IMG/VR virus record: IMGVR_UViG_3300012000_000020
Location: 1-39,458 of that record
Reading direction: 5' to 3' (one strand)
Source: a virus
DNA: 39,458 nucleotides
Part shown: positions 3-24,743 of the stretch, piece by piece
Layout of the letters: each line of letters opens with the position of its first letter
Position numbering within the stretch: the first letter of the stretch is position 1
Program-made: the position numbers and the translations under genes
Notes under the pieces: generated by a model
What the model was told of the DNA's origin: nothing
Databases searched by the model: none
Seen by the model: the letters and a program-made list of their open reading frames with translations, nothing else

Positions 3-3000
3 GCTGGTGTCACTGGTGCTATTCGCGGTAGCGAAGAGAGCTCCAAGACCAAGACCGACAAGACGACTACTCCTCCTCCCGCTGCTCCGTCTACCGGACT
101 GGGCGAAGGAACCAGTGTCGATTCGATCGCCACCGAAACCAACCCCTCGAACATCAACATCGGCGCGGATGCGCTCGCCGGTCGCATGGGGATGCAGAAG
201 TGGATGAACTTCGTTGCTGCCATCTATCGCAATGGCACCGACGAGCAGAAGCAGACCATCGACTCGTACATTGACAGCACCAATTCTCGCGACAACTTCA
301 ATGACGCGATGAATAATCCTGACCGAGTTCAGGACGGAGACGAGCGCTTCCGGCTGGATCAGGAAGATCCGAGCGCTTACAAGCAGTCGGAATGGTTCCT
401 CGAGTCGGCAAAGCAAGCTTTGGCTCAAGGTAGCGAAGAATCGACCTCGCAAAACGCGCCAGGATCGACGCAAAGCGCAGCACCCACACCTACCCCTTCT
501 GAAAATGCCGGAACGCAACAGAGCGCGTCTGGTGAAGCCGGAAGCCAATTCAAGGGTGATGGGCTCGTTATTGCCCCCAAAGTGGGCGATAAGTTCGGTG
601 TTACGTGGAGGATTCCCATCCCCGGCATTTCTGACCAGGACGAATCGGTCAAGACTCCGGACAGAACATACACTCTGACCAAGGTAGAGCCGCAACTCGA
701 TGGCACCTACAACATTGAGTTCATGCGTCCGGCTCGCGGTGACCAACCAGAGAAGACTTACAACATCAAAGGCATTACCCGTAGCGGTAGGTTCGGCAAG
801 GGCAATGAGAGCATCGCTCGCTTCAAGACGGTCAAGGTCGGCAAGGACCCGATGACCGAGTTCTGGAGACAGCAGCTGGCAGAGAAGACTTTTGCCCTGC
901 AGTCGGAAGAGACTCAGGACAAGGAAGCAGTTGCCAAGCAAGTCGAGGACATCAAGAAGCGGCTCAAGTACGTAGACGACTACGCTGCCGCTGTCGAGGC
1001 ACGTCGCAAGGCAGAGGTTGCCCCGAAGGATGACGGTCTGCGCATGCGCACCAACCGTGAGGCTCCAAAGCTCGAGCTGACCACGGAAGAGATCAACCAG
1101 AAGTTTGAGGAAGCCAGGGCCAAGCTAGGCGATAGCCTTCGCAAGTTTGCACCAGGGGTGATGAACATCACTCCAGAAGATTCCCCGTCTGGCGCTCAGG
1201 TTCTGAGCGAGCTTGCGGATTACATGTACTGGCTCGTGCGCAAAGGTGTTCGTAGCGCAGCTGAGGCGATCGCTCGCACCAAGGCCAGCTTCGGTGATTC
1301 CATCAAGCCTGTCTCCGCGGCTGACATCAAGAAAGCCTACGAGACTGCTGTCGCCCGTGACCAGGCCGAGCGCACCAAGTCGAACCCGCTGGCGCAGGAG
1401 CGCGGCAAGCCGTCCACCGGTACTGCCACCAAGCAGACCGCCGAGCTCAAGAAGAAGCTCGAGGAGATCGACAAGCAGTTTGGCGGCAACCAGAAGGTTG
1501 CAGAGAGCAAACCCAAAGAAGTCGTTAGCGCTTCCGACAGCTACAGCACTGCAAAGTCCAAGGTCATCGCCAATCCCATCCGCCAGAACGCGGTTGAGCT
1601 GCGCGATGCCATGCAGAACCAGATGCAGGCCGAAGGCTTGCAGATGATCAAGGAGCGTGGTGGTCCGAAGAATGTGACCAAGGCCGACGTTGCCGAGATC
1701 GCTAACCAGCTGCAGGCGAAGTACGAAGAAGAGATCTCTGGTCTGCCTGAGCGAGTTCGCGACCTGTTTACTCAGCGCTTGCAGGATGTGGAGGCAACCG
1801 TCCCTGTTGAACGCAAGGGAGAGAAGACGCGCTTCGTCAAGACCAAGACCAAGGGTCCGTCAGCTATCGAGCGCATCAGTGCAGATGTCCTCGACTCACT
1901 GCTCGGCGTGGTGAACGAGAAGCTTGCACCGGTCATTAAGGAAGAAGAGGACTTCCGCGACACTGGCCAGCAGGCGTACAAGAATGAAGATCGCGTTGAG
2001 GTTCTTCCGGTCAAGAAGAAGAGCAACAAGCCTGTCTCGAAGGAAGTCAAGGAAGCCGCCATCAAGGCGCGTGAGCGTCAGATTGCTGCGCAAGACGCCA
2101 GAAACCGAACTCTGAAACGCAAGAGTGGTATACCGTCAGATGGTAGGAGCCTGCGTCAACGTGCGATCGACTCGATCGTTGCCGAGCTCAACGAGAAGCG
2201 TGAGAAGGAACGCACCCTCACCCTGCGTGAGATTCGTGGTGCCCTGACCGCTGCATTCAAAGCTGGCGACCACCTCACCAACAAGAACCTGTTCAAGGCT
2301 ATCGCCAATGGCGACTACCCGCAGAACTTCCGTGACCGCCTGACCTTCCCGCGCCTTACTTCCGCAGAAGAAGTCGAGGGCATCTTCAAGAAGATGCTTC
2401 CCGAGCTGCAGTCGCAGAAGAAGGAAGCGCCCAAGTCGCAGATCCAAGAGCGTCGTGAGCTCTCCGATCAGGAGAAGCGCGTCAACAGCTTCAAGTCTCG
2501 CTTGATGCGCATCACTGGTGGTGCCAACACCTCGATCACCAAGGCATACGACAAGACCGTCAGGGCTATCTCCGAAGAGCTGCAGGCCCTGCAGGCGCTT
2601 AGCTACTCGCTGCGCTACAACAAAGAGCTCAACGCCAAGGAGCTGCTCGAGAAGGTTGCAGAGAAGAAGCAGATGCCCCTTCTGAAGAGGGCACTCGAGG
2701 GTGACGAGACTGCGTTCCGCATGTCTGGCATCAACCTGTCTGTGGTCAACCAGCCCGATGCCCTTCGTTCCGCCATCAAGGAACTGGAAGAACGCCAACG
2801 TGCTCTGGTCAGCAACAACTCGTTCGCCCGTTCGGCTGAGGTGTTCCAGAACTGGTCGGAGATCTACCGCCAGGTGCAGGAGCTGCGCAAGGAAGCGACT
2901 GGTGTCCTGACGGAAGAAGAGGTCTCCAACCTCTTTGATCCCGCCATGGAGCAGATGACGTGGGTCACCAAGGAGAAGCAGCGCCTCGACAAGCTCGGCA

Positions 3001-6000
3001 TCGACAGCAACAACTTCGAGACCATGGTTGCCGCGATGGCCTCTGGCGAAGAGCGCACCCGCATGGCTCCTGCCGAGTTCTCTGAAGAAGAGACCGAAGG
3101 CGGCGTCACCGGCTTTGAGTTGGCCAAGTCCATCGTCTCCGACTTCATCAGCAAGAAGACTTCTCTCGATGACGTCCAGCGCGAAGTGCGTATGGGTATC
3201 GAGCAGGGTGAGTTCACCCACGAGGATGTCACCAGAGCCTATCGTGAGCTCGGCCAAGACCCGAGTGTTGAGCACATCACCTCTGGGGCGTACATCGCCA
3301 ACCAGTTCACGCTGAAGAGCTACCGCGAGAAGTTCGCTGGCACCTCCAACCCTGTCGGCACCTGGCTCGCATCGCTGCACAACTACCTGATGGAGGCTGG
3401 CGAGGCTGGCAAGGCTCGGTATGACTCCCTGAGCAGCTCCGAGAAGGCCATCTACAATCGGTACCTGAGCTCGCGCAATGCCTTGAAGGGCGACAAGCAC
3501 CTCTTCCTCGAGCTCTCGCTGAGCGAGGTTGAGGACACCAAGTCCATCAAGGATCCGGTGTTCCGCAAGGCTGTGGAAGAGTCGTTCCCCGACACCGACG
3601 AGCGCGTCGGCATGTGGATGGAGCAGATGTTCAATCTGGTCCACAACGGTCCTCAGACCCTTGATGACTTCATCCGCAACGCCACCCTCACCAAGGAAGA
3701 GAAGGCTCGGTACCAGCAGTGGGAAACCAAGTACCTGCGCTCCCTTGCAGTGAAGGCCGTCAGAGAAGCTCGCACGATCGCCGTTGGTCGCATCAACCAG
3801 GTGCCCAACGTGCCTGCCGTGCTGATGCAGAAGTACCGTGTGCTGGTCTCTGCTGCCAACGAGAACGTAGCTCGTGCCATCGAGCGCGAAGCGCTGCGCA
3901 TCTCTGAGGCTGTAGCCAACCTTCGCGAGACGATAAAGGTTGAGAAGAAGAACCTCGCCGAGAAGAGCCGCCTCGAGCAACCCAAGAAGGGGTATCGAGC
4001 AGTCCTCGAGGGGGCCGACGAGCAGGGCTTCTTGGTCTTCAAGCTAGACGAGAAGGTCTATCCGACCCAGGCAGAAGCCGAAGCGGTGGAGAACGCGGTT
4101 GGTGCTCGTGAGGTTGAGATCAAGAGCGACAAGACCCTGCGTGACACCTACAAGGAAGTCATCGCCAACCTTCTCAAGAAGATGGTGCGTCAGGCTGAGC
4201 TCACTGATCGTCAACGCGCCCTCGCTCTGGACGAGATGCTCTCCCTTGTGGAGGGCAAGGTTGGTCTGAAGCAGATGGACTTCAGCCCTGTGGACGCTAT
4301 CGCTGAGACTGATGCGATGGCACAGCAAGCGGCTGGCCGCTTCACCTCGGTTGATGCCCTTGAGCAGCTGTCTCAAGATGAGACGGGCCAGGTGCGCCAG
4401 GTCAACGTCAACGACGATGAGGAAGCAGACTTCGTTGAGTCCGAGCGTGACTTCACCGAGAACGCCAACCTGTCGCTTGAGAACCAAGAGCAGGCCGACG
4501 AGGAACTCGATGAGGGTGAAGTCGATCAGGCAGGACAGGTCATCGACGACAACCTCCGTGCCCGTCGCGGCGGCTTCTCAGGCGTGGTCACCGCGGCGCA
4601 CGTCATGGCCAAGGTCGAGGAGATCAAGGCCGATGCGGGTGGCAACCTTCCACCGATCGTTGTCGTTGGCAACATCTACCAGCTGCCCGATGGATTGCGT
4701 CAGCGAGCTCTTGCCAAGACTGGCTTGAACGGCGCAGCCAAGGGTCTGTTCGACACCGAGACCGGTACCACCTACATCTTCTCCGACTTCGTGTCCTCGG
4801 ATCAGGATGTCGAGTTCACCGTGTTCCACGAGATCTTTGGTCACTACGGGATTCGTGGCGTACTGGGCAACAAGCTCGATAGCTTCCTGAACCAGATGTA
4901 CAACAGCAATCCGCGCATCCGCAAGATGGCGGACGCTCTGATGGAGAGCGAGAAGATCGGCAAGCTGGAAGCCACTGAGGAGGCCCTGGCTGATCTGGCT
5001 GGCCTTGGTAGCCCTGCACCCTTGCAGACCTTCCTTGGGAAGGCTGCAGCGTTCCTCAGGCCCTTCCTGCCGCGTGTTGCTGCTTGGCTCGAGTCGAAGA
5101 TCGACGTCCGTGCCATCAAGGAAGTGGCTTGGATCCTCAAGCAGGCCAAGGACTACGGTCGCAACGGTGGCACCCAGGTGTTCAACGGTGTGCCCTCGGA
5201 GATCCGTCTGGCCGAGGCACCGCCTCCCTACGAGATGGTTGTTCGTCGTGGCAAGGAGATCGTCGGCTACGCTCGTTACAACCCGACCATGGACGACTGG
5301 TACGTCTTCACCAACAACGGCAAGGACGTACGCAACAATGGATACCAGACCGCAATCATTGATGATCTGGACCAGGTGCAGAAGATCTTGCATGCACAAG
5401 GTGGCAAGATCGAGATGCGCACCCGCAGTGCGTACTACGTGAACAGCAAGACTCCGCTGGACATCAACACCTACGGAGACTACTTCGATCCGAACACCAG
5501 CACCGGCTGGCGTAGGTTCTGGCGTAGCGCCACCATACAAGCGCAGAACGAGTATCTGCCGATCATGGAGCGTGTGAAGTTCTTGGAGAGCAAGTACGGT
5601 CCTTTGTCGGATCGTGAGAATCCTCTTAGGGCAATCATGCTTTACGAGTCGCGTACTGGCTCCGTGCTCAAGCAACTCAAGCGTGACCACGTGGACAAGA
5701 TCACCGCTCTGCTGGAGGTGCTTGGCAAGCAGGGTGGAGATGTAGATATGGAGTTCAAGGATGTCACCCGTACCGTCCATGACTGGTACCTGATGGCACT
5801 CCACGCTCCTGAGCGCAATGCCGTGGTTCGTCGTCTGCGCAAGCAGGGTATGAATGAGGAGCAGGCTCAAGCCGCTGCAGGCGTTGAAGAGAAGAACCCT
5901 GGCTCTGGTATCAGCGACAAGGAAGCCAAGGAGATCCTGGCCAAGATCCGTCAGGAGATGAGCCCTGATGCCATGAAGACCCTTGAGGCACTCTCTGCTC

Positions 6001-8357
6001 GTATGCAGGCGCTGAGCCGCGACAAGGTGCGCTACATGTACAACACCGGTCTGATCACCGCAGATCAGGCCGCTGCGCTCAACCAGTACAAGAACTACGT
6101 GCCTCTCAAGAACAGTGAGGTTGACGTCAGTCAACTTCCTGGTGGTCGCAAGCTCAACGTGCGTGGCACCGACATTCGTCGGTCAACTGGTCGCGGCAAT
6201 GGCAACATCGCTGACAGCGTGATCGAGAACGCGATTCTGGATGCCGAGTCCGTAAGTATCCGCGGCCAGAAGAACGTAGTGCTCAACACTATCCTGAACA
6301 TGCTCGAGCTCTACCCCGATCCGAACTTCGCATCGGTGAACGTGATCAAGTTCAAGACCAAGGTGCAGAAGGATGGCACCACCAGAGAGACTGCGCTGTT
6401 CCGTCAGGACGGTTCGATCAACCTGATCCCGATGTTCCAAGGGAAGGTGCGCGAGATCCCGAACTACGAGGTAGTAACGGAGCGCGATACCAACTACATC
6501 AACGCCGACAACGTGGTGGTCGCCAAGGTTGGTGGTCGTCCGGTGACCATGGAGTTTGCCGACACCAGCTTCGGCAGCTTCTTCAACTCCATCCACGGTG
6601 GGTTCAGCATCCCCACCGAAGACAACCTGGGCGCTCAGATCGCTGACGTTGTCAGCCGTGCTACCCGCCTGATTGGCCGGATGTACACCAGCTTTAACCC
6701 TGAGTGGATTCCGGTCAACGCAATGCGTGACCTTCAGTCCTCGCTGCTCAACGCAGTCACCGATGGGAAGATCACCAAAGAGCAAGTCGCTCTCATGCGC
6801 GAGAACATGCGCAAGGCAGCGAACGCTGCAGCTCACTTCTTCTACGGCGAAGAGAACAAGGCGACATGGCTGCGCAACAGGCTCAAGACGCCTGATGCCA
6901 AGATGATGGCCTACCTCGAGGAGATGGAGAAGGAGGGTGGCATCACCCTGTTCCTCGATCGCAGCAACTTCGAGGACGTATCCCGCAAGATTCGGATGGC
7001 TCTCACCGGCCCGAAGAACAAGCTGGAAGGCTTCGTCAGCAGCGCTCGTGATGTACTCGACTACGTCGAGATGATGGGCACCCCGCTGGAAGTCATGCCG
7101 CGTCTGGCGCTCTATGCTGCTCTGCGCGAGACCGGTGTGTCGCCCAGTGAGGCAGCACTTGCAGCCAAGGACATCACGGTCAACTTCAACATGCGTGGCC
7201 GTGCTCGCATCCTGCGCCAGCTGTACGTCTTCTGGGGTCCTGCCATCAACGGCACCGAGAAGATGTACCGCCTGGCCAAGGAGAACAAAGCCAAGTTCTC
7301 GGCTGTGGCCGGTGGTCTGTTCGTGCTCGGGTTTGTGATGAACATGATCGCCAGAGCCAACAGCCCTGGTGGAGACGACGACGACGAGCCGGATGCTCTG
7401 GACAAGATCCCAGTCTACAAGCGCTCGACCTCGATCGTGATCATTCCCGACATGCCTGGTGGCTCGATCCCCCTGCCCTATGGCTGGAACGCTTTCTACG
7501 CTATGGGCCATCACTTCGCCGACTACGTGCAAGGCATACAGCCCATGAGCACTGCTCTTGGCCGCGGTGTCAGCGCATTCGTGGAAGCCTTCATGCCGCA
7601 AGGCTCTGGCCTTGAGAAGGACGAGTGGTACAAGCAGCTGATCTCGGTGGTCTCGCCCAGTGTGTTGACGCCCATCAACGACCTGGCTTGGAACCAGAAC
7701 CGCTACGGTGCGCCGATCTACCGCGAGAAGGGTCCGTTCACCCCGTACGACGAGGCGGATGCGTACATGCACTTCGACTCCGTCTCCCCGATCACCAGAG
7801 GGTTGGCTCACACCCTCAATGACGCAACCGGTGGTGACCGGTACAAGGATGGGTTCCTCGGGTTCAATCCGGCCAAGGCCGAGTACCTGGTCCAGGCATT
7901 CAGCCCAGGAGCCGTTACGACGGTCTACAAGCTGGCCTCGACTGGTGTACGTTCCTTGGCAGGGGAAGACATCAAGCGGACGCCTATGCCCTTCGTGGAC
8001 AAGTTCAGCGCCTATGTTCCGCAGGGGTTCAACATGGCCGCTTACCGCCGCGTCTCAGAGAAGGTCGAGACCGAGTGGAAGCGTCTGACTGACCCCAACA
8101 TCTCAGCTGAGGCGAAGAAGGAGATCCGCGAGGAGTTCCCGCAGCTTGGCAGGATGCATGCGGTGTACAGCGCAACGCATCAGGATCTTCGGAAGTTGAG
8201 CTCTGCGATCAATGCGATCGAAGACAACCCGAAGATTCCCGATGCCGAGAAGGTGCGCCGCAAGAACGAGCTCAAGGCCCGTATGGAGAAGGTCTACGAC
8301 CGCTTTATGAGCAGGGCTATTGAGTCCGGCTTCAAGGAACAGGCTATCGGGGATTGA
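3..8357 (+). CDS. Giant polyvalent phage protein, 5' end outside window (metallopeptidase signature, LPD38-like C-terminus)
   Basis: The frame is open from the left edge, so the first in-window ATG (186) is not the true start; 2784 residues are visible. The N-terminal two thirds is charged, helical, coiled-coil-like sequence. Around visible residues 1609-1614 is HEIFGH followed by YG, and about 50 residues later EEALAD (1659-1664). This HExxGH plus EExxA layout is that of zinc metallopeptidases such as family M49 and of the metallopeptidase domains described in phage polyvalent proteins. The C-terminal 400 residues hold a hydrophobic segment (about 2433-2451), an acidic GGDDDDEPD run and a pattern I recall from large polyvalent protein-associated domain LPD38. 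Such proteins are usually carried in the capsid and injected with the DNA, acting against host defences. Peptidase activity is inferred. It ends 14 bases inside a convergent small gene. Confidence 0.85.
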   Translation, partial: AGVTGAIRGSEESSKTKTDKTTTPPPAAPSTGLGEGTSVDSIATETNPSNINIGADALAGRMGMQKWMNFVAAIYRNGTDEQKQTIDSYIDSTNSRDNFNDAMNNPDRVQDGDERFRLDQEDPSAYKQSEWFLESAKQALAQGSEESTSQNAPGSTQSAAPTPTPSENAGTQQSASGEAGSQFKGDGLVIAPKVGDKFGVTWRIPIPGISDQDESVKTPDRTYTLTKVEPQLDGTYNIEFMRPARGDQPEKTYNIKGITRSGRFGKGNESIARFKTVKVGKDPMTEFWRQQLAEKTFALQSEETQDKEAVAKQVEDIKKRLKYVDDYAAAVEARRKAEVAPKDDGLRMRTNREAPKLELTTEEINQKFEEARAKLGDSLRKFAPGVMNITPEDSPSGAQVLSELADYMYWLVRKGVRSAAEAIARTKASFGDSIKPVSAADIKKAYETAVARDQAERTKSNPLAQERGKPSTGTATKQTAELKKKLEEIDKQFGGNQKVAESKPKEVVSASDSYSTAKSKVIANPIRQNAVELRDAMQNQMQAEGLQMIKERGGPKNVTKADVAEIANQLQAKYEEEISGLPERVRDLFTQRLQDVEATVPVERKGEKTRFVKTKTKGPSAIERISADVLDSLLGVVNEKLAPVIKEEEDFRDTGQQAYKNEDRVEVLPVKKKSNKPVSKEVKEAAIKARERQIAAQDARNRTLKRKSGIPSDGRSLRQRAIDSIVAELNEKREKERTLTLREIRGALTAAFKAGDHLTNKNLFKAIANGDYPQNFRDRLTFPRLTSAEEVEGIFKKMLPELQSQKKEAPKSQIQERRELSDQEKRVNSFKSRLMRITGGANTSITKAYDKTVRAISEELQALQALSYSLRYNKELNAKELLEKVAEKKQMPLLKRALEGDETAFRMSGINLSVVNQPDALRSAIKELEERQRALVSNNSFARSAEVFQNWSEIYRQVQELRKEATGVLTEEEVSNLFDPAMEQMTWVTKEKQRLDKLGIDSNNFETMVAAMASGEERTRMAPAEFSEEETEGGVTGFELAKSIVSDFISKKTSLDDVQREVRMGIEQGEFTHEDVTRAYRELGQDPSVEHITSGAYIANQFTLKSYREKFAGTSNPVGTWLASLHNYLMEAGEAGKARYDSLSSSEKAIYNRYLSSRNALKGDKHLFLELSLSEVEDTKSIKDPVFRKAVEESFPDTDERVGMWMEQMFNLVHNGPQTLDDFIRNATLTKEEKARYQQWETKYLRSLAVKAVREARTIAVGRINQVPNVPAVLMQKYRVLVSAANENVARAIEREALRISEAVANLRETIKVEKKNLAEKSRLEQPKKGYRAVLEGADEQGFLVFKLDEKVYPTQAEAEAVENAVGAREVEIKSDKTLRDTYKEVIANLLKKMVRQAELTDRQRALALDEMLSLVEGKVGLKQMDFSPVDAIAETDAMAQQAAGRFTSVDALEQLSQDETGQVRQVNVNDDEEADFVESERDFTENANLSLENQEQADEELDEGEVDQAGQVIDDNLRARRGGFSGVVTAAHVMAKVEEIKADAGGNLPPIVVVGNIYQLPDGLRQRALAKTGLNGAAKGLFDTETGTTYIFSDFVSSDQDVEFTVFHEIFGHYGIRGVLGNKLDSFLNQMYNSNPRIRKMADALMESEKIGKLEATEEALADLAGLGSPAPLQTFLGKAAAFLRPFLPRVAAWLESKIDVRAIKEVAWILKQAKDYGRNGGTQVFNGVPSEIRLAEAPPPYEMVVRRGKEIVGYARYNPTMDDWYVFTNNGKDVRNNGYQTAIIDDLDQVQKILHAQGGKIEMRTRSAYYVNSKTPLDINTYGDYFDPNTSTGWRRFWRSATIQAQNEYLPIMERVKFLESKYGPLSDRENPLRAIMLYESRTGSVLKQLKRDHVDKITALLEVLGKQGGDVDMEFKDVTRTVHDWYLMALHAPERNAVVRRLRKQGMNEEQAQAAAGVEEKNPGSGISDKEAKEILAKIRQEMSPDAMKTLEALSARMQALSRDKVRYMYNTGLITADQAAALNQYKNYVPLKNSEVDVSQLPGGRKLNVRGTDIRRSTGRGNGNIADSVIENAILDAESVSIRGQKNVVLNTILNMLELYPDPNFASVNVIKFKTKVQKDGTTRETALFRQDGSINLIPMFQGKVREIPNYEVVTERDTNYINADNVVVAKVGGRPVTMEFADTSFGSFFNSIHGGFSIPTEDNLGAQIADVVSRATRLIGRMYTSFNPEWIPVNAMRDLQSSLLNAVTDGKITKEQVALMRENMRKAANAAAHFFYGEENKATWLRNRLKTPDAKMMAYLEEMEKEGGITLFLDRSNFEDVSRKIRMALTGPKNKLEGFVSSARDVLDYVEMMGTPLEVMPRLALYAALRETGVSPSEAALAAKDITVNFNMRGRARILRQLYVFWGPAINGTEKMYRLAKENKAKFSAVAGGLFVLGFVMNMIARANSPGGDDDDEPDALDKIPVYKRSTSIVIIPDMPGGSIPLPYGWNAFYAMGHHFADYVQGIQPMSTALGRGVSAFVEAFMPQGSGLEKDEWYKQLISVVSPSVLTPINDLAWNQNRYGAPIYREKGPFTPYDEADAYMHFDSVSPITRGLAHTLNDATGGDRYKDGFLGFNPAKAEYLVQAFSPGAVTTVYKLASTGVRSLAGEDIKRTPMPFVDKFSAYVPQGFNMAAYRRVSEKVETEWKRLTDPNISAEAKKEIREEFPQLGRMHAVYSATHQDLRKLSSAINAIEDNPKIPDAEKVRRKNELKARMEKVYDRFMSRAIESGFKEQAIGD

Positions 8358-11387: not shown

Positions 11388-11713
11388 GTTCCTCTCCCCG
11401 CAAGCCGCGCAGCGGCTCGTTGAATGCTGTTGTTGAACCAACGACGGATGGCGTACTGGCGAATGACCGACACCGCTGTGTAGATCCATCCCATCCAGAA
11501 GTTCTCACCAAGGGTGAAGCTCGCGCCGATCATCGGAAGGATGAACAGGTTGGCTACGAAGTTCACCGAGAATCCGATGGCGATGTTGACCCACGCCTCG
11601 ATGATGGATTGACGCCTAGTCTGGCCGGTGCCCTGATCCGCGCTGTTGTAGACGCGGAAGGTGAACGCCGCCACAAAGACGGCGCACACAACCCCGATGA
11701 TCTGCAGCGTCAT
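11384..11713 (-). CDS. Small membrane protein, DUF7220-like
   Basis: This has 109 residues with an N-terminal span (residues 2-20), a QTRRQSIIEAWVNIAIGF segment, and two further hydrophobic stretches ending in YAIRRWFNN. The pattern 'Q-x-R-R-x-S-x-x-E-A ... R-x-Y-x-x-R-R' matches my memory of a phage membrane family (DUF7220). Function is unknown. It is coupled by overlap on both sides, to the DUF5664 gene upstream and the 40-residue membrane protein downstream. Confidence 0.75.
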   Translation of the reverse strand: MTLQIIGVVCAVFVAAFTFRVYNSADQGTGQTRRQSIIEAWVNIAIGFSVNFVANLFILPMIGASFTLGENFWMGWIYTAVSVIRQYAIRRWFNNSIQRAAARLAGRGT

Positions 11714-12144
11714 AGCTGATCGGTGTCAGCGATGGTGTAGTGCCGCGGGTCCTTGTCTGCGTAGCGGTCTATCACTTCCCCTGCCCTGCCATTGAGCTCG
11801 TAGTAGAACGGCTTGGCAGAAGGCGGACGGTCATCGGTGACCATGCCTTGCATCATCGCGTCTCGCAGCACCGTGAGCGATGCAATCGCCTTGGTGATGT
11901 GCGAGATACCCGAATCAGGGTCGATGTCCTCACCCTCCCACCAAGCCATCAAGTGGCGCAGGGTGCCGTCGTAATAGACAGAGGCTCTGACCCCTGAGGC
12001 GCGATAGTTGTGACGACCGTATTTGCAAGCACCCTCGAGCATGGCAACGCCAAGCTCTGCAAGGACGTTTGCAGGTACGGTAGACATCGGTGCCTTGCGC
12101 ACACCGACCATGTCCTTGGGATTGGTGGACTTGTTGTCGCTCAA
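11710..12144 (-). CDS. DUF5664 / dATP-dGTP diphosphohydrolase N-terminal family protein
   Basis: These 144 residues begin NPKDMVGVRKAPMSTVPANVLAELGVAMLEGACKYG (described by position 8-43), then a HLMAWWEGEDIDPDSG segment with acidic residues and a helix with a HITKA motif. This matches the DUF5664 family, relatives of which act as dATP/dGTP diphosphohydrolases (MazZ) and shape the nucleotide pool. The acidic EGEDxD motif would bind Mg2+. No PurZ partner is present here, so a 2-aminoadenine genome is not implied. Confidence 0.8.
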   Translation of the reverse strand: MSDNKSTNPKDMVGVRKAPMSTVPANVLAELGVAMLEGACKYGRHNYRASGVRASVYYDGTLRHLMAWWEGEDIDPDSGISHITKAIASLTVLRDAMMQGMVTDDRPPSAKPFYYELNGRAGEVIDRYADKDPRHYTIADTDQL

Positions 12145-12368
12145 TCGATCACCCCGCAGCGGTGATAGTTCTTCAGCGTACGCGACACCGACTTCATGGC
12201 GTCATTCCACCCCTTCTCGTACAGGCTCTTGGGTTCCATGTACATCACCAAGTCATCCTGCAGCGAGGCGATAGCCTTTGCGGTGGCATCGCGGTGCATG
12301 TTCCAGAACAGATGATTGCGCTTGAGTGCAAGCCAGCTTCTTACAAAACTAACTGGTGACAACCGCAT
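12141..12368 (-). CDS. Hypothetical basic protein
   Basis: The ATG at 12368 is preferred over a TTG at 12386 because GGGGAG sits six bases ahead of it; this gives 75 residues. The protein is basic, with RSWLALKRNHLFWNMHRD and an EKGWNDAMKSVSRTL helix typical of small phage proteins ending in a conserved 'GWNDA' region. It overlaps the glycosyltransferase 3' end by 20 bases and the next start by four. Confidence 0.65.
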   Translation of the reverse strand: MRLSPVSFVRSWLALKRNHLFWNMHRDATAKAIASLQDDLVMYMEPKSLYEKGWNDAMKSVSRTLKNYHRCGVID

Positions 12369-13143
12369 CCTTTTCTCCCCCGTCAATCAATGTCGTCTGT
12401 TTGGACTTAGCCCAAGGCATCACACCACCGTGATGGCCAACGAACTTGTGCGAACCCCAATGACAAAGATTCGTCCATGGTGCTGCATAGACTTTACCTC
12501 CAGCCTTCATCCAGAGTCTGCAAAAGTTCATGTCCTCGCTCCACATGTACCCTTCCTCATCAATGTAAGTGTTGAAGAAGTCAACTACTCCGGTAACGCC
12601 TTGCTCGTCTGTGTATGAAGGTAAGGTCTTAGTGAGCTTAGTGAAGACATCCCTCTTGATTAGCATAAATCCTGTTGCAACACCGTCTACCTCAACTGGT
12701 TCATCTCCATGTCCAACTGGTTGGCTGAACCTTGTTGGCAACTTGTTAGTTGCATAGACATGGATCTGATCCGCGGGAACACCTGACGTGCATGCCTCGT
12801 GAACCAAGCTCCAGTTGATCTCCTTGATCGGATAGATGCCGCCAATCAAGTCCTTGTCGGCAGCAACCATCCTGAACACATCCATTGCATCAAAGCCAAT
12901 ATCAGAGTCCAAGAACAGCATGTGTGTGCAGTCCGTTTGCAAGAACTTATGCACCAGTTCGTTTCTTGCCCAAGTCAGAATGCATGAGTTGTACAAAGCC
13001 GAAACTTCCAGCTTGATGCCACTTGCTTGACAACTCATTGCAAGGTTGATTAGGCCCATTGCGCAATCGCCAAACAGCTTGCTGTCGTAAGCTGGTATCG
13101 CGACGAACAGAGACACACCGTTGGGGATGTTGATTGTCCTCAA
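12349..13143 (-). CDS. GT-A type glycosyltransferase-like protein, TTG start
   Basis: The TTG at 13143 has AGGAG seven bases upstream, overlapping the previous stop, and no ATG fits; this gives 264 residues. The protein opens VSLFVAIPAYD, then MLFLDSDIGF (a DxD-type metal/nucleotide-sugar motif), GGIYPIKEI, VDGVATGFMLIKR and YMWSEDMNFCRLW, the order of a GT2-like GT-A fold. It would transfer a sugar to an unknown acceptor, perhaps DNA bases, a host surface glycan or a protein. It lies in an early recombination operon rather than among tail genes, which is unusual for a surface-modifying enzyme. Confidence 0.8.
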   Translation of the reverse strand: MRTINIPNGVSLFVAIPAYDSKLFGDCAMGLINLAMSCQASGIKLEVSALYNSCILTWARNELVHKFLQTDCTHMLFLDSDIGFDAMDVFRMVAADKDLIGGIYPIKEINWSLVHEACTSGVPADQIHVYATNKLPTRFSQPVGHGDEPVEVDGVATGFMLIKRDVFTKLTKTLPSYTDEQGVTGVVDFFNTYIDEEGYMWSEDMNFCRLWMKAGGKVYAAPWTNLCHWGSHKFVGHHGGVMPWAKSKQTTLIDGGEKDAVVTS

Positions 13144-13153
13144 GTCATGTCTC

Positions 13154-13405
13154 CTAGTGGACAGGAGGCACAGCTGCGCTGTTGACGAAGCGCTCTGCCA
13201 CACCATTGACGATCGTGTTGAAGTGACCGAGACACTCCGCGGCTTCCTCTTCGGTTTCCGTGCAGGAATCGATGAGCATCCCAGTCATGGTGCCGATCAC
13301 GATCAGCCAGTCAACCGGAAGGACTTCCTCCTTGTGATCGACAAGGAGGTTCCACCAGTCACGCGTGAACTGCTCAAGGACTTGCGTCTTGGCTTTGTTG
13401 CTCAT
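13154..13405 (-). CDS. Hypothetical small protein (MSNKAKTQVLEQF)
   Basis: ATG 13405 has GGGAGAGG just upstream; this gives 83 residues. It has a tryptophan-rich N-terminal helix (FTRDWWNLLVDHKEE) and later acidic helix TETEEEAAECLGHF. There is no recognised domain. It overlaps the end of the Xis-like gene by 32 bases and its stop codon lies in the ribosome-binding region of the glycosyltransferase gene, so the three are probably translated together. Confidence 0.65.
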   Translation of the reverse strand: MSNKAKTQVLEQFTRDWWNLLVDHKEEVLPVDWLIVIGTMTGMLIDSCTETEEEAAECLGHFNTIVNGVAERFVNSAAVPPVH

Positions 13406-20947: not shown

Positions 20948-21205
20948 CTACCAGAGGCTTGGCAGCACTTCGTATTTCCCCTGCTTCGTGTGCATATGCA
21001 GGGCTCCTGCGTCATTGCCTTCGTCATCCGACATTACGATCACGGACGTGCCGTTGTCCAGCGTGAAGATCAAGGGTCGGCCTTGGATCGTCAGGTCTTG
21101 CATCTCTTGGTCCGAGGCGTACTCGACGTCGATGATCTTGCGGTCAAGCATCAAGCTCTTGGCCGTCTGGTTCCACTTGGAAATCATCTCAACCTGCGGT
21201 GTCAT
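20948..21205 (-). CDS. Hypothetical protein, last gene of the leftward block
   Basis: This encodes 85 residues with a strand-rich core (KIIDVEYASDQEMQDLTIQGRPLIFTLDNG, then TSVIVMSDDEGNDAGALHMHT). It is acidic overall and no family is recognised. AGGAG lies eight bases before the ATG. It is separated from the amidotransferase gene by a hairpin, so it may be expressed by read-through. Confidence 0.7.
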   Translation of the reverse strand: MTPQVEMISKWNQTAKSLMLDRKIIDVEYASDQEMQDLTIQGRPLIFTLDNGTSVIVMSDDEGNDAGALHMHTKQGKYEVLPSLW

Positions 21206-21262: not shown

Positions 21263-22213
21263 TCAGCTGACGACGTCAGCGTGAGTCCGATCGAACGTCT
21301 CCTGCGTGAAGGCATCCTCGATCCAACGAGCTGCCTCCTCAGGATCCGCATCGACCAGCTCCTCGACATCCTCAGCTTCAACCTCGTACCACTGCTGAAG
21401 GAAGAACTTCGCCTTGTGCGGAGCAGCGATGACCCAATCGACCAGCTGCTCGTTACCCCTGCGCCAGCAGTTGTAAGCAGCCTTGCACACCTTGCGGTAG
21501 CTCAGCTCCTTGCCGCCAACCAGGGGTACCACCTTGTCCTTGGTGTAGCTGGGCGAGCCCCAGGTATCACCGTGCTCAGCCGTGTAGTCATCAAGCAGGC
21601 TGCGGTTGTACCAGGAACTGCCGTAGGTGGTGCTGCTCTTGTACCGCTCGTAGTAACCGAACTTGCTGGGGCTCCAAGCGTAGGTGTTGGACAACCACAT
21701 GCCCATGTGATGGACACCAGAGCGCTCGTTCAGAATCACCGTGCGGCCATCTGCACACATGAAGCCGAACTTGTTGCTGCTTCCGATGGTGGATGCGATG
21801 AAGTCTTGGAAGTCCTCATCGAACAGCTTCTCCGGATCGGACTGCAGGATCGGGCGCAGGATGTACTCGATGAAGTGCCAGGTGTCCGACTTCTTCGGAT
21901 CGACTGGGTTGCTGCAACTGAGCACACCGTTGTGCGCCATCCAGATGTCGTCGGTCACCCGATACGGATGGCAGTTGTCCAGGTCCACGTCACCGTGCGT
22001 CTGCATGCGGAAGTGCAGGATGCACTCACGTCCGATGCAGTGCTCGTCGTAGAGCTTGATGATCTCTTCCGGACTGGCCAGAGTCTTGATCACTTCGATC
22101 TTGCCGTTCTCGGCAAACATGATTCCGAATCCATCGTTGTTCTTGGTGTAGACATCGAGGATCAGTTCGTTGGACATCTCCGCATCAGCGGGCTTGTGAA
22201 TCAGAAGACACAT
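21263..22213 (-). CDS. Class-II glutamine amidotransferase (Ntn hydrolase)
   Basis: This has 316 residues. Cys2, exposed after Met removal, is the nucleophile (MCLLIHKP). NDGFGIMF (26-33), HFRMQTHG (67-74), CHPYRV (81-86) and AHNGVL (93-98) are the glutamine-site motifs of the YafJ/GATase_4 family. It releases ammonia from glutamine or acts as a related amide hydrolase. The C-terminal 150 residues are phage-specific, with many Tyr and Trp, and may bind a partner. It starts three bases after the amidoligase stop, so the two are very likely cotranslated and work together on one amide-bond reaction. Confidence 0.88.
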   Translation of the reverse strand: MCLLIHKPADAEMSNELILDVYTKNNDGFGIMFAENGKIEVIKTLASPEEIIKLYDEHCIGRECILHFRMQTHGDVDLDNCHPYRVTDDIWMAHNGVLSCSNPVDPKKSDTWHFIEYILRPILQSDPEKLFDEDFQDFIASTIGSSNKFGFMCADGRTVILNERSGVHHMGMWLSNTYAWSPSKFGYYERYKSSTTYGSSWYNRSLLDDYTAEHGDTWGSPSYTKDKVVPLVGGKELSYRKVCKAAYNCWRRGNEQLVDWVIAAPHKAKFFLQQWYEVEAEDVEELVDADPEEAARWIEDAFTQETFDRTHADVVS

Positions 22214-22216
22214 GGT

Positions 22217-23668
22217 TCAGTTCCTTTCAAGACGAGATTCAATGTAGGGGCGAAGGTTCTTGGTCTCACGGTAGGCATCGCCTTCGTGGATGAACTCAAG
22301 GAACCGATCGGTGGTCAGGTGGAAGCCTGCCGGTGAAGCTGGTGCGGCGAAGTTGCGCAGCGCGTTGACGAACTCCAGTGCAGCCATCAGCGTCTGGTAC
22401 TTCAAGGTTCCCTTGAAGATCCGGAACTCGATGGTGCTGTTGTTCGTCACGTTGATCGCCTCGTAGCGATCGTTGGTATCCGAAGCGTGCTTCAGCTTCT
22501 TCTCCTTGATCTTCGAGTAACCGCAGCTATACCGACGCGCAACAGCACGGATGAGCTTCTCGTTATCCGGATGGTTAACGAAGGTGATCATCTTGTTGAG
22601 CTGGATGTGCGTCAGCGCACGGCGATCCAGATGCACATGGAAGCCGCAGCTGCTGGTGTTGTGCGACAACAGGTTGCGGCGCAGCTCCTTGTCTTCGGTC
22701 CAGGTCCAGAAGTCCTTGTGCAGATCAAGACCCATCGGCTGGGTGATGATCTCGAAGCCATAGGACAGCGAGCCGTCGTGCTCGAAGAACGCACGGTAGC
22801 CAACGTCACGGCCATCGTTCAGCTTCTCGTGCAGCTGAAGCGCCTTCTCCCCAGAGTTGCCATGCTTGACCTCGACCTCGAGCTCAGCACCCATGAAGCA
22901 GTGCTTGTTGATCTTGGTCCATTCGGATCGAATCGGGCTGAAGCTACCCTTGGACGAGTGATACCCGCGGATGATGTGCGGTGAACTGCCGCCGTACTCA
23001 CGATGTACATACATTTCCTCGTCGTCGTCCCACACGAAGTCACAGTTGTCACTGTGGATTGTGACCTCGTTGCCATCCTCGTCCAACGCATTGGTAGCGT
23101 AGTCGTTGTGGATGTAGCAATCCTCGTAATCCGACCAGGTGTAGTTCTCCTCTGCGCAGATACGACAGACGCGTTCATCTGCGGGGTACTGCGATTCGTT
23201 CGTGAACTCGTACCGTTCGCAGTCATTGCAGACGAAGACGACGTCGCAGTCGATCAGATGGTCATGTACCTCGTCGCCATCCGGCTTCCTGCCCAGCATC
23301 CGCATGATGCGGTTGAGTTCAGAGGTCGAATGAGCATCTTCCACTACGCCGCTACTCATCAAGTGGGCGTACACCATGCCGTACTCAGCACCCAGGAAGT
23401 CTGCATTGCTGATGGCATTCCGCAGGAAGGAATCGACAAAGTTGTTGTTGTCAATCCAGCGACGGTCACGCTTGCGCCAGCCGTCTGCTGCGTGCGAGTT
23501 GTGATGGTCGTAAGTCCCAGTCTTGTGGAACTTGTTGCTCACCTTGTGGTAAGTGTTATCGATGAGCTCGGCCAGTTCATCGGGGTGGTCCAGCTTCTTG
23601 TCGGCCATGCGACGAGCGGCCTTGCAAAGGATCTCGAACAAGCCGAGATCTTCGGTTGCACCTTTCAT
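22217..23668 (-). CDS. Amidoligase (COOH-NH2 ligase, glutamine-synthetase/GCS-like fold)
   Basis: This has 483 residues. An N-terminal 140-residue helical region precedes a zinc-ribbon-like segment (C147, C150, C168, C171) and an acidic stretch. The catalytic region has GAELEVE (260-266), EHDGSL (297-301), GFEIITQPM (304-312), CGFHVHLDRR (341-350) and TIEFRIFKGT (412-421), the metal and ATP-binding blocks of the Amidoligase_2 family. It would join a carboxylate to an amine, with the neighbouring amidotransferase supplying ammonia or trimming the product. The acceptor is unknown; a peptide tag, cell-wall precursor or small metabolite are options. AGGAG lies before the ATG. Confidence 0.9.
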   Translation of the reverse strand: MKGATEDLGLFEILCKAARRMADKKLDHPDELAELIDNTYHKVSNKFHKTGTYDHHNSHAADGWRKRDRRWIDNNNFVDSFLRNAISNADFLGAEYGMVYAHLMSSGVVEDAHSTSELNRIMRMLGRKPDGDEVHDHLIDCDVVFVCNDCERYEFTNESQYPADERVCRICAEENYTWSDYEDCYIHNDYATNALDEDGNEVTIHSDNCDFVWDDDEEMYVHREYGGSSPHIIRGYHSSKGSFSPIRSEWTKINKHCFMGAELEVEVKHGNSGEKALQLHEKLNDGRDVGYRAFFEHDGSLSYGFEIITQPMGLDLHKDFWTWTEDKELRRNLLSHNTSSCGFHVHLDRRALTHIQLNKMITFVNHPDNEKLIRAVARRYSCGYSKIKEKKLKHASDTNDRYEAINVTNNSTIEFRIFKGTLKYQTLMAALEFVNALRNFAAPASPAGFHLTTDRFLEFIHEGDAYRETKNLRPYIESRLERN

Positions 23669-23702
23669 TGGTTGCTCCTGGTTGTAAACATGGAGAGCGG
23701 CT

Positions 23703-23727
23703 GCGGCCCTCGTTGAGAGGGGGCGCG
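23703..23727 (-). terminator. Hairpin ahead of the amidoligase gene
   Basis: CCCTC (23707-23711) pairs with GAGGG across GTTGA, extended by GCG/CGC. It lies between the 54-residue gene and the amidoligase ATG. It could be an attenuator or RNA-processing site; a U-run is lacking. Confidence 0.45.
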
Positions 23728-23731
23728 GACG

Positions 23732-23896
23732 CTACGCTGCTGAAAGGTGATCCAGGTATACGAAGAGTTCTTCCTCGATCGGATCAGGGATCAGTTCGAG
23801 TAAGGAGAAGAGGAGTAATGCTTGGAGGATTCTTTCGAGGCGTACTGGATCATCCAGTGAGTTGATCAACTCAAGCTTGATGTGTTCTACCCACAT
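23732..23896 (-). CDS. 54-residue acidic protein, read from sequence
   Basis: ATG 23896 shares its A with the stop of the DUF3846-like gene (TGATG), a strong sign of coupled translation. The product starts MWVEHIKLELINSLDDPVRL, continues with an amphipathic leucine-rich helix (RILQALLLFSLLELI) and ends EEELFVYLDHLSAA. It is leucine-rich and acidic, predicted fully helical. It lies between the DUF3846-like gene and the amidoligase, so a link to that system is possible but unsupported. Confidence 0.7.
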   Translation of the reverse strand: MWVEHIKLELINSLDDPVRLERILQALLLFSLLELIPDPIEEELFVYLDHLSAA

Positions 23897-24270
23897 CAGA
23901 GGACATAGATGGAGAAGCTCGGCGCTTCCACGGTCACGGCGTTACTACCTGGGAAAGAGATGACGCCTTCCAACCATTCGATGTTGCACAGCGGTTCGAC
24001 ACTCTCACCCTCAGCGTTAGTGCCAAGGACGAGACCTTTGCCAGCGATGACCTGCTCGTAGTTCGGTTCCATCTTGATGCGGAAGTAATGCATCTCGGAC
24101 TGGTCCTTGAGCAGGCCCTCGTCATCCACGAACACGGTGTCCTCGTCGTCGTTGAGCTGGACGGCGGTGAAGTAATCACATCCGATCATCGGAGCGATGT
24201 CTTCCCAGTTGCCCGAGTAGTTCACTTCGGTGATCGCCTTCTCGAAGGGATCGATCAGGTATGCCTTCAT
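23896..24270 (-). CDS. DUF3846-like protein
   Basis: This has 124 residues. It begins MKAYLIDPFEKAITEVNYSGNWEDIAPMIG (first 30), then DYFTAVQLNDDEDTVFVDDEGLL and a beta-rich tail with GKGLVLGTNAEGES, the typical build of DUF3846 proteins encoded by phages and plasmids. Their role is unknown, and they often sit beside other small anti-defence-type genes. AAGGAG precedes the ATG. The start is two bases from the previous stop. Confidence 0.75.
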   Translation of the reverse strand: MKAYLIDPFEKAITEVNYSGNWEDIAPMIGCDYFTAVQLNDDEDTVFVDDEGLLKDQSEMHYFRIKMEPNYEQVIAGKGLVLGTNAEGESVEPLCNIEWLEGVISFPGSNAVTVEAPSFSIYVL

Positions 24271-24272
24271 TG

Positions 24273-24743
24273 CTACTCTCCTTGTTGATAGGTGTCAGTA
24301 CCGTAGGGCCAGGTCCTATCACGCCTGGTCCTACCATCGCGGAAGTAGTAGGCACCTTCGTACCCCTCCTTCTCGCACGAGAAGTGCAGCTTGAACCCGA
24401 GGTCTTGGTAGTGAGGGGCAAGCCGTTGGATAAACCGACGTGCGCTGTATCCCTCAGTGGTGAAGTGGACAGTGAAGAACGTTGGCTTGTCCGCGGTGAA
24501 CACCAAGTCATCGGGGTGGTTGGTGAAACCCCAGTAGTTCAGACGCCATTCTTGCAGCGTGGGGTAACCGTACATGTGCATGCGACGGAAGTACTCCTCG
24601 TCCGTCGTAGGTCGATCCTTCGGCAGGTCCTTAGGCTGCGCGAATAGATCATTGAATGGATCGCTGGTCTTGAACTTCTCTCGGAGAGGAACGACCAGCT
24701 TGTCCTCTCCATGGATGGTCAGCTTGTTGTTGACCTGTGCCAT
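24273..24743 (-). CDS. YubB/Api92-like ferredoxin-fold domain protein
   Basis: This has 156 residues. MAQVNNKLTIHGEDK at the start, a variable insert, then LQEWRLNYWGFTNHPDD, TVHFTTEGYSARRFIQRLA and GFKLHFSCEKEGYEGAYYF reproduce the YubB (DUF1281/Api92) pattern found on plasmids and in phages. The molecular function is not known. It is the second gene after the 69-residue protein and clusters with other small accessory genes. Confidence 0.75.
   Translation of the reverse strand: MAQVNNKLTIHGEDKLVVPLREKFKTSDPFNDLFAQPKDLPKDRPTTDEEYFRRMHMYGYPTLQEWRLNYWGFTNHPDDLVFTADKPTFFTVHFTTEGYSARRFIQRLAPHYQDLGFKLHFSCEKEGYEGAYYFRDGRTRRDRTWPYGTDTYQQGE

Follow-up and report, generated by a model that had tools for sequence, protein, structure and literature searches.

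The region between positions 21263 and 23896 of the window, i.e., the whole stretch of 39,458 nucleotides from IMG/VR record IMGVR_UViG_3300012000_000020 that was analysed here, raises the question of what a phage-encoded amidoligase and the class-II glutamine amidotransferase (GATase) beside it may amidate. Iyer and colleagues are said to have predicted such amidoligase systems. As the preliminary description of the locus had pointed out, the pairing of Amidoligase_2 enzymes with glutamine hydrolases is a known one: phage pairs of this kind have been noted since 2009 (Iyer 2009), and published examples include those of mycobacteriophage Marvin, OM43 phages (PMC10580990), LUZ24-like phages (PMC3890496), and Phage-ZRK32 (PMC10945688). 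The roles proposed in the last three publications are a cell-wall change against superinfection, secondary metabolites, and nitrogen metabolism, and none of these accounts of the OM43, LUZ24-like and Phage-ZRK32 pairs reports a tested substrate or a shown activity.

The genes of the locus are transcribed from the minus strand in the order DUF1281_C (Api92-like), DUF3846, 54-residue protein, amidoligase, GATase and 85-residue protein (Table 1). The two enzymes are separated by three bases, and both this spacing and their coordinates had been given correctly in the preliminary description. That the block is expressed early may be inferred from the gene layout only.

Table 1. Features of the amidoligase–GATase locus (positions are those of the window).
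Feature	Position	Strand	Length	Remarks
Api92-like DUF1281_C ferredoxin-like domain protein	24273–24743	−		Pfam, 21.9 bits, just under the cut-off of 22.8
DUF3846 protein	23896–24270	−		Pfam, 44 bits; recurrent neighbour of the pair
Small protein, third module member	23732–23896	−	54 aa	Family motif W-x2-HV-x-LEI ... RL-x2-I ... LIP
Amidoligase (GS-like carboxylate-amine ligase, Amidoligase_2)	22217–23668	−	483 aa	Pfam PF12224; N-terminal helical region, 1–140; C4 zinc finger, C147/C150/C168/C171; catalytic domain, ~250–483
Class-II (Ntn) glutamine amidotransferase	21263–22213	−	316 aa	Nucleophile Cys2; residues 1–180
Protein downstream of GATase	20948–21205	−	85 aa	Neighbour clustering

Profile analysis assigned the amidoligase to Pfam Amidoligase_2 with a score of 34.4 bits (curated cut-off, 22), and the PHROG assignment agrees with Pfam for the families of both enzymes. 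In an alignment of 60 amidoligases, clostridial ones included, residues E262/E264, D298-G-S300, E306, H344/H346, R379, R401, E414 and R416 are invariant. The AlphaFold (AF2) model based on this alignment (mean pLDDT, 84.7) matches glutamine synthetase (Foldseek; E-value, 1e-5), and its residues 254–483 can be superposed on YbdK (Z, 12.3; rmsd, 3.9; 212 aligned residues), while further matches of the structural alignment (~250–483) were to plant glutamate-cysteine ligase, GmaS and Dop/PafA. Among solved structures no sequence relative was found, all matches being at chance level. A search of IMG/VR with the single amidoligase sequence likewise gave no match, and viral relatives were found there only when the alignment was used as the query. 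An unrelated fold, as well as the loss of the Glu/His/Arg set in relatives, was looked for and neither was seen, so that the earlier assignment to Amidoligase_2 stands on profile, invariant catalytic residues and predicted fold alike. The protein is a predicted glutamine-synthetase-fold enzyme with a complete active site, for which ATP-dependent amide formation is predicted.

The reading of the adjacent gene product as a class-II amidotransferase was borne out in the same manner: it scores 32.3 bits against Pfam GATase_4 (cut-off, 23), and M1-C2, R69, H94-N95-G96 and D110 are invariant in 43–45 relatives. A profile search of the PDB led to GlmS (1xff; E-value, 7e-6), and the model (mean pLDDT, 84.5), which has an Ntn-hydrolase fold of the GlmS/PurF type, matches 1xff (E-value, 7e-6) and EgtC. 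The extra C-terminus, put at 150 residues previously, is real and comprises ~135 residues here, of which 190–232 are modelled as disordered and 239–313 as a mostly confident helical domain. Neither enzyme contains a membrane-like stretch (maximum 19-residue hydropathy <1).

The pair is most likely a two-subunit enzyme that would work as a glutamine-dependent carboxamide synthetase. The GATase would convert glutamine to glutamate and ammonia by means of Cys2, the amidoligase would phosphorylate the carboxylate of a substrate with ATP, and ammonia would then displace the phosphate to give a primary amide. The transfer of ammonia between the subunits is very probable, and an amide is also probably the product. 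The enzyme would be made in the cell infected (or lysogenised) by the phage, and the host cytoplasm would be the site of action.

The association of the two genes is near-obligate in viral loci. With the amidoligase as probe, a GATase gene was found next downstream on the same strand in 79 out of 80 viral loci, and the GATase probe recovered an amidoligase gene directly upstream in 79 of 80, the two sets not being independent because many contigs are common to both; the single exception in each set runs off the contig end. In a relative located on a C. difficile plasmid, the next annotated gene codes for a nucleotidyltransferase and not for a GATase, so that some members may obtain their ammonia from another source. 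Plasmid carriage was dismissed as a general context for the relatives, since only five plasmid records hold one. The kind of pair is a known one; the present analysis shows that its two genes remain together in many diverged phages and that gut bacteria carry it as well, at loci of mobile appearance.

In bacterial genomes, the pair is present in the kept order in 66 out of 80 loci, a resolvase family is nearby in 43/80, and a DUF960-family gene, typically directly upstream, in 26/80. The clostridial chromosomal loci share with the window the gene order as well as the invariant cysteines and catalytic residues; they differ in having DUF960 and resolvase neighbours, mostly six CxxC motifs in the amidoligase (two in the window), and a far more diverged GATase, which mostly scores weakly against the phage profile (15–42 bits) and in the one case checked was confirmed as Pfam GATase_6. 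A conjugative-element context was rejected: the nearest relaxase lies ~140–250 kb away in two closed genomes, and the clostridial loci are therefore best described as resolvase-linked. The occurrence of the same pair in phages and in resolvase-linked chromosomal loci argues against a role in the virion or in lysis and for action on the host cell, which weakens the virion target considered in the preliminary description. Host modification, superinfection exclusion or counter-defence is thus the most likely role, rather than virion building, and a host-modification role as such has, in our estimation, an even chance of being correct.

Several observations concern the clostridial loci themselves. 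On the Ruminococcus bicirculans chromosome (L256/L257, ~1,674–1,707 kb), the pair is found in an apparent defence island together with a SIR2-domain protein near the ThsA models, a type II DNA methyltransferase, a type I restriction enzyme, and GTPases of weak LeoA similarity. A known anti-phage defence system was rejected as an identity of the pair, as PADLOC models match neither enzyme nor the clostridial pair. In Clostridium sp. MD294 (L259, 2429–3490), the GATase gene is directly followed by a gene for a CxxC-rich protein, possibly a partner or paralogue, whose family is present in 6 of the 80 genome loci.

The feature that may link the pair to a particular target is the zinc-finger region. 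The CxxC...CxxC extension described earlier is indeed present at the N-terminus of the amidoligase, but, contrary to what had been thought, it is not unusual: all four of its cysteines are retained without exception in the 60-row alignment, and no fewer than 99% of 70 distinct viral/phage amidoligases have them. This finger is followed by two degenerate finger-like repeats reaching approximately residue 225, and two clostridial N-termini pass the Pfam LIM cut-off (35.4 and 28.8 bits vs. 22.9). LIM domains are protein-interaction modules, which points to a target that is a protein or peptide; since nucleic acids are bound by zinc fingers as well, the finger is no proof of a protein target, and this step is the weakest link of the favoured explanation. 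Target recognition is most likely carried out by the invariant LIM-like C4 finger and not by the catalytic domain, and the small protein described below would possibly contribute to it. A protein or peptide substrate, whose probability we place slightly below even, is more probable than a free metabolite. The favoured explanation as a whole, in which a glutamine-dependent carboxamide synthetase with a finger-chosen target serves host modification, exclusion or counter-defence, is about evenly balanced between being right and wrong. In any case, the analysis defines a tight finger-bearing subfamily with a fixed candidate element for target recognition.

The finger also bears on two other substrates. 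It is unlikely that the pair amidates a small carboxylic metabolite, be it for auxiliary metabolism or to yield a small effector aimed at a defence enzyme, and a free metabolite would not account for the finger domain. YbdK, glutamate-cysteine ligase and GmaS, all of which act on small substrates, are nevertheless among the closest solved folds, the Phage-ZRK32 pair has been published as a nitrogen-metabolism auxiliary gene (PMC10945688), and the pairs of LUZ24-type relatives adjoin ATP-grasp and gamma-glutamylcyclotransferase (GGCT) genes (PMC3890496). Neither GGCT (PF06094) nor RimK-type ATP-grasp (PF08443) was found in the 56.7-kb IMG/VR record, which may be incomplete, while the positive controls worked; the record accordingly carries the two-enzyme core only, unlike the extended cassette of LUZ24, tf and StenR_269 (COOH-NH2 ligase, amidoligase, GATase, ATP-grasp and GGCT), with which it shares Amidoligase_2 and class-II GATase, there located in the early region. 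The profile of the second COOH-NH2 ligase (PF14395) gave no match in the record and none in the controls either.

A further alternative, which we regard as rather unlikely, is amidation of a carboxylate in a peptidoglycan precursor (cf. MurT/GatD and AsnB-type enzymes), with the effect of blocking superinfection or lysis by rivals. The chemistry would be identical to known precursor amidation, cytoplasmic cell-wall precursors are possible substrates, and clostridia and mycobacteria, which are hosts of the wider family, carry such cell-wall amides. MurT/GatD, however, combines a Mur-ligase fold with a GATase of class I, and is thus a different enzyme pair; moreover, one would not expect an invariant LIM-like finger where the substrate is a small, soluble sugar-peptide, and the family is also found in phages of Gram-negative hosts. 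A cell-wall role has been put forward in the literature for phiEco32, and is mentioned there for OM43 phages and clostridial prophages as well.

The third member of the module belongs to a previously undescribed family of ~57-aa proteins, a new element of the system. The 54-residue ORF begins within the stop codon of the DUF3846 gene, one base being shared (TGATG), in agreement with the coupling noted earlier, and this overlap, together with the existence of homologues, identifies it as a real gene. No relative above chance was found in Pfam, PHROG, NCBIfam or the PDB, and there was no match among cultured phages. Of the 70 distinct viral loci, 17 encode a member, whose gene usually follows that of the GATase within 20 bases; the copy of the window precedes the amidoligase instead. 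With the small protein as probe, all of the 16 recovered loci (on contigs that largely overlap the earlier viral set) carry the gene of this GATase, and the amidoligase gene as well wherever the contig reaches. The 54-residue gene is thus a recurrent partner of the pair, whereas DUF3846, conservation of which had also been proposed as a check, is only an occasional one (7/70 distinct viral and 12/80 bacterial-genome loci). The 85-residue protein has homologues in 10 of these 70 distinct viral loci, where their genes mostly follow that of the GATase. The hairpin reported between the 54-residue gene and the amidoligase gene was discarded as a regulatory element, since its folding is matched by that of shuffled sequences (z, −0.71; equally good folds in 43/200 shuffles) and it has no U-run.

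On the amidoligase tree, presence of the small protein changes 8 times, compared with a shuffled mean of 15.3, some of the changes being due to cut contigs. By this pattern and its absence from most pairs, the small protein is an accessory partner that has long shared the history of the pair, and not a universal substrate; the latter was rejected, even though the gene is missing in some cases because the contig ends there (e.g., L023, L025, L029 and L045). It is very improbable that the small protein is a tag that becomes amidated at its C-terminus or conjugated, as Pup is by the GS-fold ligase PafA. The amidoligase fold is common to Dop and PafA, the small protein was seen only with the amidoligase–GATase pair, and the C-terminus of several members reads GGE, GGK, GGL or GG. 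The C-terminal tail is, however, the least conserved part of the protein (LSAA in the window; SDL, KSE or HRP in others), which excludes the conserved GGE/GGQ of a Pup-like tag, the gene is missing from most pairs, and a conjugation ligase would need no glutaminase partner. The small protein is, however, a candidate adaptor. A three-component protein-modification system, in which it would act as adaptor (or substrate) and, together with the finger, direct the enzymes to a specific host protein, where an Asp/Glu or C-terminal carboxylate would be turned into an amide and a defence or host factor neutralised, is improbable; if true, it would represent phage-encoded glutamine-dependent amidation of host proteins.

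Relatives of the pair were compared in individual phages. Gp105/gp106 of mycobacteriophage Marvin (cluster S), a distant relative, have the same order, the same two families and CxxC motifs in the amidoligase, with identities of 29% and 27% by tblastn; in contrast to the window, there is an annotated gap of 79 bases and no gene of the new small-protein family was recognised alongside. Adjacent pairs were also found in podovirus ctgrD200 (MW202733, Manatee Spring; 42–45% identity, integrase nearby) and in OM43 phages MEP401 and MEP402 (28–38%), but no member of the 54-residue family was recognised in these three, and MEP401 does not align at all four finger cysteines.

The 56.7-kb record encodes a tyrosine integrase, terminase, podovirus-type connector, major head protein and endolysin, and is therefore best read as a temperate podovirus. 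Among the proteins scanned, which represent part of the genome, there was no gene supporting DNA hypermodification. Elsewhere in the window, positions 186–8357 (+) encode a 2723-aa protein, the first ~1780 residues of which have no PHROG match, while the last ~900 match phrog_14770 and phrog_616 (functions unassigned). The product of 11710–12144 (−) contains a dATP/dGTP diphosphohydrolase N-terminal domain (Pfam, 84.8 bits); the label of its best PHROG, "endolysin; inhibits RNA polymerase", looks misleading. A glycosyltransferase-like protein with a weak Anp1 match below the cut-off is encoded at 12349–13206 (−). Finally, a metallo-phosphoesterase gene lies among the late genes on the plus strand (L003, 7922–8881; genome positions 47321–48280), and such a gene has also been reported for OM43 phages, a group in which the pair is present in some members.
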